Shown one piece after another: positions 1 to 8,567 of a DNA stretch of 10,104 nucleotides. Made by a program: the position numbers and the translations under genes. The stretch is from Methanobacteriota archaeon. GTDB taxonomy: Archaea > Thermoplasmatota > Poseidoniia > Poseidoniales > Thalassarchaeaceae. The first letter of the stretch is position 1, and each line of letters opens with the position of its first letter. Below the pieces are notes generated by a model. That model had not been told where the DNA came from. It saw only the letters and a list, made by a program, of their open reading frames with translations, and ran no database searches. The DNA is taken from contig NYXO01000010.1 in the NCBI GenBank assembly GCA_002685415.1, positions 1 to 10,104 of the forward strand, written 5' to 3'.

Positions 1-1890
1 GTGAAGAGTTCCCAATCTTTCGTCAAGCATTCGTCCAGTCATCTTTGGATACCAATAGTAAATCGCTGAGAAGAATCCGAAGACTGTACCTCCTACCAGC
101 ACATAGTGGAAGTGAGCCACGACGAAGTAAGTCTCGTGTAGGTGAGTATCCATTGCGATGGACGGGAAGAACATTCCAGAAATCCCACCAAGCGTGAAGG
201 TAACCAAGAATCCTAGCGCCCACAAAGTGTGCGTGCGATAGACAAGCGAACCTCCGTGCATAGTTTTCAGCCAATTGAAGATCTTGATACCAGTAGGGAC
301 AGCGACCAGCATAGTTGTCAGCATTGTTACGAATCTTAGCGAAGGTGACATTCCAGAGGTAAACATGTGGTGTCCGTATACGATGAAAGCCACGACTCCA
401 ATTCCTGCCATTGCATAGACCATTGATCGGTATCCAAAGATAGAACGCCTTGCGGATGTGGCAAGTACTTCGGAAATAACACCGAATGCAGGCACAATAA
501 CCACGTACACCTCAGGATGTCCGAAGTACCAGAACAAGTGACTCCACAGTAATGGGTCCCCTCCAGCAGATATGTCATAGAATGCTGTGGAGATAGTTCT
601 GTCAAGGTATACTTGAATCAGCCCTACACCGAATGCTGGAATTGAAAGGAATAGCATTAGGTTAGCAACCAAAATACTCCATGTAAACAATGGCATTTGC
701 ATCCATCCCATACCTTCTGCACGCATTACTGCCATTGTGGTAAGGAAGTTAATTCCGGTTAGAGTAGATGATGCTACCAGCATTATCTGTCCTGCAACCC
801 ACATTGTGACACCAGTATGTGCGCCTTCTGTTACGATGTATGGGGCATATCCTGTCCATCCGGTATCTGCTCCTTCTCCGGTGAATACACCGGTGAAAAT
901 CAATAATGCAGCGAACGGTTGTAGCCAGAATGATAGCGCATTCAATCTTGGCATAGCAAGGTCAGGAGCACCGATTTGAAGAGGGACCATCCAATTTGCA
1001 AAACCATTGATCAAAGGCATTGCCGCAAGGAAAATCATAGTTGTTCCGTGCAATGTAAAGAATGAGTTGTACTGGTCTTGAGAAATGAAGTCATTACCTG
1101 GGACAGCCAGTTGAATTCTAATCATCATAGCAAGAATTCCACCGATTCCGAGGAAGAATAGACCTTGAACGAAGTATAGAGTTCCTATCTTCTTGTGGTC
1201 TGTACTGGTAAGCCACTCGGTCAACCAAGGTGCTAGATGCTCCCAATCGAATGCATCGGGATTGGTTCTGTAAAATCCATACAGGATTGTGACTGTGAGA
1301 AGTATTCCAGAGATAATGATGAGAGTTGCCAATACCTTGTATGGGTCGGCTTCTTCCAATCCAGGGCCTAATGACCCTGCAACCTTCAGAGTCAGTTTAT
1401 TCCACTGATCTTCGGGACCAGCATTTCCATCTCCGTTAACAGAGTTCACATGGACTACGAAGTCTACATCTCTACCATGACTTGGAGCAATCCATTCGAC
1501 TGTCCATGATGTGTAATCGTTACCGGCTTCGGTATGGGTGACCTCAGAGGGGCCATTGGATTGAACAGTTGCATCTAGAGGAGTAATTTCACCGCCGGAT
1601 GCCCAAAGATTGAATCCTCCAAGATTTGCATTTCCTTCAGCAGATGGGCCACCAGTGAATGAGATTGTAACCTGATAGGTCTCAGACATGTTGTATTCTT
1701 CTGGAAGGCCATCTAGAGTCACCATGACCGCAGCATTTGGAGCAGCGGCGTGACAGTTACATCCACCAGCACTGATTTGATCGTAATTTACACCAGTCGG
1801 TAATGAGTTCACTGAGGGTGATACAACCATTGCGATAGATATCAAAAGAAAAGCTACCATACTTCGTGAAATCGTAATGTTTCTTCCCAT
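1..1890 (-). CDS. coxA: Cytochrome c oxidase subunit I (aa3, A-type) with extra N-terminal extracytoplasmic domain; 3' end outside window
   Basis: Catalytic subunit of a proton-pumping haem-copper O2 reductase in the membrane. The frame is open for 630 codons from the ATG at 1890 to base 1, with no stop. Seen in the translation: haem a ligands H281 and H595, haem a3 ligand H593, CuB ligands H458, H507 and H508, the cross-linking Y462 (GHPEVY), E460, D310 and N317 of the D channel, and K536 of the K channel (VPTGIK). This set defines A-type oxidases. The normal core begins near residue 228 (TSTDHKKIGTLY). Before it lie a signal peptide (hydrophobic core 11-23, possible cleavage after S29), a beta-rich domain at about 37-172 with GGCNCH at 42-47, and a membrane helix at about 187-205. 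That layout is unusual for subunit I. The expected Mg-site Asp is Glu here (E586). The gene follows coxB after 14 bases, so it is probably cotranscribed. The last helices lie beyond the left edge. Confidence 0.96.
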   Translation of the reverse strand, partial: MGRNITISRSMVAFLLISIAMVVSPSVNSLPTGVNYDQISAGGCNCHAAAPNAAVMVTLDGLPEEYNMSETYQVTISFTGGPSAEGNANLGGFNLWASGGEITPLDATVQSNGPSEVTHTEAGNDYTSWTVEWIAPSHGRDVDFVVHVNSVNGDGNAGPEDQWNKLTLKVAGSLGPGLEEADPYKVLATLIIISGILLTVTILYGFYRTNPDAFDWEHLAPWLTEWLTSTDHKKIGTLYFVQGLFFLGIGGILAMMIRIQLAVPGNDFISQDQYNSFFTLHGTTMIFLAAMPLINGFANWMVPLQIGAPDLAMPRLNALSFWLQPFAALLIFTGVFTGEGADTGWTGYAPYIVTEGAHTGVTMWVAGQIMLVASSTLTGINFLTTMAVMRAEGMGWMQMPLFTWSILVANLMLFLSIPAFGVGLIQVYLDRTISTAFYDISAGGDPLLWSHLFWYFGHPEVYVVIVPAFGVISEVLATSARRSIFGYRSMVYAMAGIGVVAFIVYGHHMFTSGMSPSLRFVTMLTTMLVAVPTGIKIFNWLKTMHGGSLVYRTHTLWALGFLVTFTLGGISGMFFPSIAMDTHLHETYFVVAHFHYVLVGGTVFGFFSAIYYWYPKMTGRMLDERLGTLH

Positions 1891-1904: not shown

Positions 1905-2639
1905 TCAGGCATGAATACTAACGCCAGCCATCATGTAGGCGTGATCGTCTCCACAATATTCGGTACAGAGTAGAAGGAAGTCCTCAACATCCTCTGCGAG
2001 AATCCAAACAGTGGTTGTCTGTCCCGGAAGAACGTCTTCTTTGACTCCCAAAGAGACAAACCAAGGTGCGTGAGTTACATCTTCTGAGGTCATGTATGCG
2101 AGATATGCATTCCCTGCCTGTAGAGAGAGATGAGGAACGGCTCTTCCGTCTGCCTCAGTAAATCCTGATTCACATAATTCTGCTTCAAGCGTTCCACAAT
2201 CAAAACTCCAAACCCATTGCTTGGCTGTAATTTCGATGGTGTGATAGCAATCTGCTTTGTATTCCCCTTTCAGATTTGCATCATAGTCGAAGTACAAGTT
2301 CGAACCATCGTAATCGGGGCTATCGTACACACACTCGTTACCGAAATGCCCATCATTTGGGGAAGACCAAACATTGTCTAGTGGCGCCCAAGAAATGTAA
2401 GTTAGGTAAACAATCAAGATAAATGGCACAATAGTCCATGCTAATTCTAATTTTAGATTATCATTTTCAGCAGGAAAAACTCCAACTTCTAGATTGTCAA
2501 CATTGGGGTTTTCGCCATCTTTTGAGCGATAGAAAAATGAGTGGTGATATAGCCACCCAAAGGTGAACAATGCAACCAAAGCCGACCATGCAAGATACTC
2601 GTTGAAGAGGCTATCGTATAGAGGTGTGATGAGACTCAT
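1905..2639 (-). CDS. coxB: Cytochrome c oxidase subunit II with CuA site
   Basis: Electron-entry subunit of the oxidase; accepts electrons from a soluble donor (cytochrome c or a blue copper protein) at the binuclear CuA centre. The 244-residue protein has two membrane helices (about 17-36 and 66-85) and a C-terminal cupredoxin domain. All CuA ligands are visible: H190 (HAPW), C225, E227, C229, H233 and M236 in CTEYCGDDHAYM. The aromatic QWVW stretch at 141-144 matches the electron-entry patch of the family. A complete CuA site argues against a quinol oxidase. An acidic insert at about 88-168 holds four extra cysteines (103, 131, 148, 156), possibly disulfides. I chose the ATG at 2639 because GGAGAT lies just upstream; an in-frame TTG at 2651 would add four residues but overlaps that motif. 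The gene precedes coxA in the same operon. Confidence 0.95.
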   Translation of the reverse strand: MSLITPLYDSLFNEYLAWSALVALFTFGWLYHHSFFYRSKDGENPNVDNLEVGVFPAENDNLKLELAWTIVPFILIVYLTYISWAPLDNVWSSPNDGHFGNECVYDSPDYDGSNLYFDYDANLKGEYKADCYHTIEITAKQWVWSFDCGTLEAELCESGFTEADGRAVPHLSLQAGNAYLAYMTSEDVTHAPWFVSLGVKEDVLPGQTTTVWILAEDVEDFLLLCTEYCGDDHAYMMAGVSIHA

Positions 2640-2671
2640 CGTTATCTCCAATCTGACCGCGTGTGAAAGTC

Positions 2672-6103: not shown

Positions 6104-6301
6104 ATGGCGAAGGAGAAGAAGGGCAGCGGCATCCAGCAAGCAGCGGGATTAATCCGCTACTTCGACGAGGAGTCAGAGGATGCTATTCAGATCAGTAAAG
6201 GAATAGTCTACGCTGCATGTGTAGTCTTCTCTCTAGCAATTTATCTTCAGCACCATGGAGTATGGGCGTGGATGGGCGACGTCCTTTCTGGAATTGTCTG
6301 A
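6104..6301 (+). CDS. secG: Preprotein translocase subunit Sec61-beta
   Basis: Small accessory subunit of the SecYE(beta) protein-conducting channel in the cytoplasmic membrane. The 65-residue protein shows the archaeal/eukaryotic Sec61-beta layout: a polar basic N-terminus (AKEKKGSG), the conserved AAGLIRYFDEESEDAIQIS block at about 13-31, and one C-terminal membrane helix (about 33-51). Its length is normal and the gene is complete. The helix is tail-anchored, so the N-terminus faces the cytoplasm. AGGTAGGTG at 6085-6093 may be the ribosome binding site, although the spacer to the ATG is long (about 10 bases). The stop codon TGA (6299-6301) directly abuts the stop codon of the convergent neighbour, with no base between. 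This is one of the best signs that the window is archaeal. Confidence 0.92.
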   Translation: MAKEKKGSGIQQAAGLIRYFDEESEDAIQISKGIVYAACVVFSLAIYLQHHGVWAWMGDVLSGIV

Positions 6302-7439: not shown

Positions 7440-8567
7440 CTAATCTTGCTGAACAGCAGTTGCTGGAAGTACCAGATATTCGCTTTCCAATTCGTCTTCG
7501 ACTTCGGAATCAACTTCAAATTCTTCCAATTCCGGTAATCGCTGGGCTCTGTGGTAAATCTCTCTGAGCGTTTGATCACTGATTTCCAGATATACTCTGG
7601 TTGTAGCGATACTTGCATGCCCCAATAATCTCTGAATCGTAACTAAATCTGCACCGCGCTCAAGCAATCCTGTCGCGAATGTGTGTCGCAATGTGTGAGG
7701 GGATAATCGCGCGCGGGGAATTTCAGCCTCATCAGCCAATCTGTCAATTAATTTCTGAATAGAACGAGGATTGATTCTATTTCCTCTGCTAGATATGAAG
7801 AGGGCCCTTTCCGAGTCTTCATTTTCTACCATCTTTGAGCGCATAGTTCTGATCGGATTCCAAGCTTCAATTGCTTCGGTAGTCTTCTTGGTAAACAGAA
7901 CCGTTCGGTCCTTTTCCCCCTTGCCCCCAATTACGAGAGCAGATAGGTCTTCATGGTCAACATCATCGATGTCTAAATTACATAATTCAGAGATTCGCAA
8001 TCCGGTGTCCAACATTGTGGTAACTATTGGATGAGCTAGTGGGTCTTCCATTCTAAGCGCCGCTGAACGAACTTTCAGTACCTCTGAACGACCTAATGGT
8101 CGAGGCAAAGGTCTTCGGCGCGCTGGTCTTTGTACCCATTCAGGAACATTGTATCCTAGCCATTTGAGAAGATGAGATACAGCCGCTAGTCTGGCGTTTA
8201 TTGTAGCAGGACGCAACTCTCCTAGGCTGTTTAACCAAGCATCGACACGCCCAGAAGAAGGATCTACTCGCTCATGATAAACTCTTACTGGAATTTCCTG
8301 AGCCATCTCCCAAGACACCTCTTCTTCACCTGGTAAGACCGTGGTTGAGAAATCACGAGCTGCTACTGAGTATGCACGAATTGTATGCTTAGATTTCTTT
8401 TCAGTGCGTAATTGTCCAGCCCAGCACTCAAACCAAGGAAGGGCTGCCAAACGCATTAATCTGGTAGGTAGAGGAATTACTGGGTTTGAATGACTAATAC
8501 TAGAGGAAGTTTCGAACCGCCCCTGCATAACCTCTCGGTTAGCAATTCCTCTATCTTCGCCTTCCAT
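7440..8567 (-). CDS. xerA: Tyrosine site-specific recombinase, XerA/XerC/D family
   Basis: Cuts and rejoins DNA through a covalent 3'-phosphotyrosine; the chromosomal Xer enzymes resolve replicon dimers at dif. The N-terminal SAM-like core-binding domain spans about 45-145 (TEKKSKHTIRAYSVAARDF, TINARLAAVSHLLKWLGY). The catalytic domain has the full set R191 (TGLRISEL), K216 (GGKGEKDR), H291 and R294 (HTLRH), H317 (LLGHASI) and nucleophile Y326. At 375 residues it is longer than a typical 280-300 residue Xer, with about 45 extra residues at the N-terminus and an acidic tail of nearly 50 residues after the tyrosine. The ATG at 8567 follows GAGGGAG with good spacing; an ATG at codon 14 is an alternative. 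No transposon or phage genes adjoin it, so a housekeeping role is more likely than mobility. Confidence 0.93.
   Translation of the reverse strand: MEGEDRGIANREVMQGRFETSSSISHSNPVIPLPTRLMRLAALPWFECWAGQLRTEKKSKHTIRAYSVAARDFSTTVLPGEEEVSWEMAQEIPVRVYHERVDPSSGRVDAWLNSLGELRPATINARLAAVSHLLKWLGYNVPEWVQRPARRRPLPRPLGRSEVLKVRSAALRMEDPLAHPIVTTMLDTGLRISELCNLDIDDVDHEDLSALVIGGKGEKDRTVLFTKKTTEAIEAWNPIRTMRSKMVENEDSERALFISSRGNRINPRSIQKLIDRLADEAEIPRARLSPHTLRHTFATGLLERGADLVTIQRLLGHASIATTRVYLEISDQTLREIYHRAQRLPELEEFEVDSEVEDELESEYLVLPATAVQQD

Follow-up and report, generated by a model that had tools for sequence, protein, structure and literature searches.

The window analysed here is a 10,104-base stretch, the first 10,104 bases of the 15,435-base contig C41 in a 1.6 Mb draft genome of an archaeon of the order Poseidoniales, and its first gene is coxA, which encodes subunit I of a cytochrome c oxidase with a choice-of-anchor V (choice_anch_V) domain fused to its N-terminus. 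Translation of the open reading frame (ORF) on the minus strand runs from an ATG at 1890 to the contig end. The subunit I profile PF00115 (COX1) scores 439.5 bits on it against a cut-off of 34.8, which identifies a heme-copper oxidase subunit I; TIGR02891 aligns with residues 226–630, and its cut-off of 670.75 is missed even by the full-length protein P0052 (626.2 bits; 772 residues, 99% identical to the fused coxA product). The profiles begin at residue 226 (TIGR02891) or 234 (Pfam COX1), in agreement with the first-pass annotation, which had placed the start of the core at about residue 228 of an uninterrupted frame. From residue 226 on, the core occupies 1..1215 (−) and is cut by the contig end; the window stops within coxA because C41 starts at that point. 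The end of contig C7 holds further coxA sequence, with a frame overlap of 33 identical residues. Upstream on the same strand lies coxB for subunit II (1905..2651), whose product matches PF00116 above the cut-off and TIGR02866 below it. In its translation, CTEYCGDDHAYMM (1929..1967, −) corresponds to C-x3-C-x3-H-x2-M, which we take to be the CuA ligand motif. A Pfam/TIGR profile search found no cytochrome c profile on coxB, which thus lacks the subunit II cytochrome c of caa3 oxidases.

The extension ahead of the core consists of a predicted signal peptide or first hydrophobic helix (residues 1–30; 1801..1890, −), a domain matching the choice_anch_V model NF041895 with 95.8 bits against a cut-off of 42 (residues 22–168; 1387..1827, −) and an added transmembrane helix (residues 183–209; 1264..1344, −). 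The domain contains the sequence GGCNCH (residues 42–47; 1750..1767, −), a proposed heme c attachment motif of the form CXCH, and His119 (1534..1536, −), a putative second axial heme ligand. Hydropathy reveals hydrophobic segments at 4–31 and 182–208 ahead of core helix I (235–259), and an AlphaFold2 model of residues 1–215, with a mean predicted local distance difference test (pLDDT) score of 83.9, has a helix at 9–22, nine strands within 55–172 and a helix at 183–209. Both agree with the signal peptide, β-rich domain and extra helix first described from the sequence. Based on signal peptide, hydropathy and model, the domain is predicted to lie outside the membrane; the added helix would then run inward, and core helix I would therefore keep its usual cytoplasmic start, so that the fusion is topologically coherent, as had been proposed.

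The predicted model of the domain has the Reeler β-sandwich fold as well as the fold of the cytochrome f large domain, and among solved structures the F-spondin Reeler domain is its nearest relative (model comparison, VIA-align included). The Reeler profile PF02014 scores 16.3 bits on the domain, under its gathering cut-off of 21, and matches 31 of 49 relatives at E values up to 10, the best being 2.5e-4. Together with the NF041895 match, the Reeler fold of the model bears out the resemblance to Reeler or choice-of-anchor domains noted earlier. Matches of the single sequence to immunoglobulin-like entries of the Protein Data Bank (antibody chains, E 0.0015 and above) were taken as β-sandwich noise.

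Gly43, Cys44, Cys46, His47 and His119 are invariant in all 68 distinct fused N-termini. The ratio of nonsynonymous to synonymous substitution rates (dN/dS) of residues 31–180 is 0.005–0.023 against six close relatives; of three comparisons with more distant relatives, two were saturated and one gave 0.099. The domain is under purifying selection at the protein level. No methionine occurs between residues 68 and 255, which leaves no ATG near residue 220 from which translation could start (the check covered ATG starts alone). This, together with the purifying selection on the domain, speaks against an internal start near residue 220 and leaves the fusion as originally read.

A search of 292 genomes of the order was evaluated through its best 150 matches, which came from 149 genomes. 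The domain runs into the core in 145 of these 150, including one with an in-frame TGA (G201). Three of the other five are fused yet diverged, and two are broken off at a contig end, one retaining the added helix in frame (L200) and the other only the linker behind the helix (L201). For some drafts beyond the best 150, the top match reaches an E value of just about 1e-9 to 1e-24, which is what a missing or broken coxA would give. Beyond the order, six genomes from a different order of this class carry the fusion, and G315, which lies outside the class, has it twice. It is also found in the single-cell genome AG-404-A19, and the names recorded include Thalassarchaeum betae and Poseidoniales. This recurrence across genera, families and a single-cell genome rules out an assembly artefact or a gene-call error. 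One protein search passed only proteins of about 350–1100 residues, and small separate copies of the domain are missing from it because of these length limits; such copies do occur among the 51 matches of another search.

In a tree of 31 core rows, from which ten fused loci that a start-motif pattern had missed (L056, L059, L061–L066, L069, L075) were left out, the fused proteins form two clades, and the unfused L086 of genome G294 falls inside the second. The fused state requires at least two changes on this tree, which fits either two fusions, one on each oxidase type, or a loss in L086. The domain tree is poorly resolved and does not separate one from two origins of these fusions. The coxA gene of L086 is overlapped by a separate choice_anch_V gene behind it. 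A relative with a separate gene had been named as something that would speak against the fusion, but the fusion stands, because L086 belongs to a second oxidase, besides which G294 carries a fused one (L061). Some further loci deserve mention. A subunit I in G482 (L087:4588-6843) has a different long N-terminal extension that matches nothing in Pfam, and its core begins at about residue 264. Judged by eye, the COX1 at L084:1266-2945 (G077:C6), from a draft genome of the order, resembles a mitochondrial one and is probably contamination. In family f2 (L053–L060), the longest coxB frames are mostly 310–348 residues (258 in L058) versus about 217–293 in the majority of the other loci, which hints at an insert; these lengths are those of the longest open frame, with starts as found.

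Four choice_anch_V copies are present in the genome of the window, the coxA fusion included. The second heads an apparent operon with genes for a DUF7318-like protein (under the Pfam cut-off), a Rieske-like protein that scores 39.8 bits with TIGR01416 (under the cut-off, 97.4), cytochrome b and a Fer4/CCG protein. The third lies between TatC and a gene resembling PntB by eye, and the fourth sits on a long repeat protein. The domain adjoins Rieske-like and/or cytochrome b genes in three loci of other genomes (L133, L140, L147). In the same class, a separate choice_anch_V gene directly precedes NarG (TIGR01580) and NarH (TIGR01660), both above their cut-offs (L148, G294:C1). Three tandem domains precede a molybdopterin oxidoreductase with a twin-arginine (Tat) signal in L131 and L132 (G323:C234, G328:C263), and six second-type oxidase operons (L070–L075) have a fused coxA plus a separate copy downstream. 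The common feature of these partners is electron exchange at or across the membrane, mostly at its outer face. In L195:16937-19899 (G060:C92), an 886-residue CNCH domain protein is followed by the start of another secreted protein, which has CGGSCH (CX3CH); a CcmF-like gene lies about 11 kb away.

All loci and proteins analysed together yield 249 distinct domain strings. In these, the first cysteine precedes CH with a spacing of one residue in 232, two in 6, three in 1 and four in 2, and is absent in 2; of the other 6, five are without the region and one carries CICH immediately before the examined stretch. The spacing variants score above the same choice_anch_V family cut-off. A fixed CH with a movable first cysteine is the signature of heme c attachment in CXnCH cytochromes, and single-cysteine forms of attachment exist. 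The combination of fixed CH and variable spacing therefore points to heme c attachment. The canonical CXXCH is absent from the coxA domain, which has CXCH, and is found at the same place in 6 of the 249 relatives. His119 is present in 205 of 212 domains, and in G345 a copy with both a canonical CTSCH and His119 lies upstream of cytochrome b, at a distance of about 1.3 kb. A multiheme test with PF09699 proved insensitive.

Genes for cytochrome c maturation (Ccm) are present in the genome of the window, namely PF01578 and CcmE. All 16 genomes searched for PF01578 contain it, and CcmE was found in 49 of 60, while profile searches for the cytochrome c domains PF00034 and PF13442 found neither in any of the 16. 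A published survey likewise reports neither PF00034 nor PF01322 in Thermoplasmatota (PMC9287336). Of 205 genomes of the phylum outside the class, 18 contain the domain at E up to 1e-6; every one of them has PF01578, against a PF01578 background of 39/205 (Fisher 2e-15, uncorrected for kinship). With E up to 1e-3, PF01578 is present in 20 of 26 domain-bearing genomes, and the six without it have E values of 7.8e-6 to 6.1e-4. In the 48 genomes with a listed COX1-core match, leaving out G323, G329 and G476, whose COX1-label match may be the domain itself, the domain is present in 8/13 with PF01578 versus 0/35 without (Fisher 3e-6), or 8/13 versus 1/35 at E up to 1e-3.

Taken together, the variable-spacing CXCH, the Ccm genes and the operon partners point to covalent heme; these signs had escaped the first-pass annotation, which was right about the fusion itself. 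We propose that the added part is probably a membrane-tethered c-type cytochrome domain outside the membrane, with a Reeler or cytochrome f-like β-sandwich. The Ccm system would join heme to the contracted motif C44-N-C46-H47, His47 being one axial ligand and His119 probably the other, and the fused domain would share a complex with the CuA subunit. The Rieske/cytochrome b complex would hand electrons to its own choice_anch_V protein, in the position of cytochrome c1 or f; from there they would pass, directly or via the blue copper protein halocyanin, to the CoxA-tethered domain, then to CuA of CoxB and on to the oxygen site. Established oxidase and bc/b6f biochemistry underlies the first and last of these steps. 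The oxidase would thus bear its own cytochrome, as in caa3, but as an N-terminal fusion on subunit I. Several observations limit this proposal. The motif region is poorly modelled in the AlphaFold2 prediction, and an aligned His119 is missing in four of the six CXXCH members and in the Rieske-linked L140, for which reason the second ligand may vary among members. In addition, CcmE was not found in 11 of the 60 genomes searched, and Ccm in Poseidoniales may have other clients.

Electron-donor docking and metal binding, both named in the first-pass annotation, are still among the candidate functions, whereas attachment to other envelope proteins is now less likely. That the domain carries no cofactor and acts as a Reeler-like module for docking blue copper donors or assembling a supercomplex, with CXCH as a disulfide or structural element, would suit the F-spondin Reeler domain as nearest solved structure and the occurrence of some copies in secreted proteins that bear repeats or T9SS tails; we consider it unlikely, as the CH is fixed while the first cysteine moves, and Ccm genes are present without the cytochrome c domains tested. 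Binding of copper or zinc by Cys44, Cys46, His47 and His119, for a copper electron carrier or for copper delivery to CuA/CuB, seems quite unlikely to us. The four possible ligands are invariant in 68/68 fusions, and copper redox proteins are in use, halocyanin being highly transcribed in Thalassarchaeaceae (PMC9723583). However, the domain also stands beside Rieske/cytochrome b, NarGH and molybdopterin enzymes, none of which needs copper delivery, it co-occurs with Ccm, and a cysteine spacing of 1 to 4, or a single cysteine, with a fixed CH is unusual for a metal site. It is very improbable that the domain is made within CoxA and then cleaved off to act as a free or separately anchored protein. 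Separate domain genes do adjoin cox and Rieske genes, but the added helix leads the chain back to the inner side and the fusion persists throughout the order.

A broader claim would make choice_anch_V a class of c-type cytochromes that is widespread but has gone unrecognised, with a contracted CXCH and kinship to cytochrome f. In Poseidoniales it would take the place of cytochrome c1/f in the Rieske/cytochrome b complex and of cytochrome c on the oxidase, and it would point to the origin of cytochrome f. We regard this tentative claim as possible but doubtful. To our knowledge, that origin is unexplained, and a real link would give a photosynthetic protein a prokaryotic relative. In the surface waters of the ocean, Poseidoniales are the most abundant planktonic archaea (PMC6461757); two further papers report that the canonical bc1 complex is missing in most of them (PMC6336850) and that cytochrome c genes are missing in Thermoplasmatota (PMC9287336). 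If our proposal is true, a heme c domain hidden under a name of unknown function fills this gap, the Ccm genes gain a client and the heme-copper oxidases a new layout. A literature search, with most subscription papers outside its reach, found no description of a choice_anch_V domain on subunit I, in line with the earlier statement that none was known.

Elsewhere in the window, a short frame at 6104–6301 (+) is Sec61-beta-like by eye, and a frame at 7440–8567 (−) resembles a XerC/D-type tyrosine recombinase by eye.

Compared with known systems, the domain shares with choice-of-anchor V (NF041895; MXAN_6652 family NF041894) a profile match above the NF041895 cut-off, a GCxCH start, a signal peptide and a variable C-terminal anchor. 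In coxA, the "anchor" differs in being a membrane helix that runs on into oxidase subunit I. The name of the NF041895 model states no function. Different from cytochrome f (petA), the coxA domain has CXCH instead of CXXCH, is about 147 rather than about 250 residues long, too short to hold the small second domain, and shows no such insert in the model. In hhalign, the best local match to cytochrome f, obtained without realignment, falls exactly on the heme motif, pairing CNCH...LPEE and CANCH...LPDT, and scores 21.2, a value that 1 of 200 column shuffles attains; with the motif masked, the score is 14.4 and 7 of 100 shuffles are as high. Sequence proof of homology failed in the default local and global modes, masking removing the match, and it is fold, architecture and gene company that suggest homology to cytochrome f. 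Relative to Reeler (PF02014; F-spondin 2zou, 3coo), the domain is under the Pfam cut-off, and the F-spondin alignment begins only after the CXCH region. In caa3 oxidases, a cytochrome c domain of the ordinary fold is tethered to the C-terminus of subunit II of an A-family, CuA-bearing oxidase. The proposed cytochrome domain would likewise be tethered to a CuA-bearing oxidase, but it has another fold and sits at the N-terminus of subunit I.
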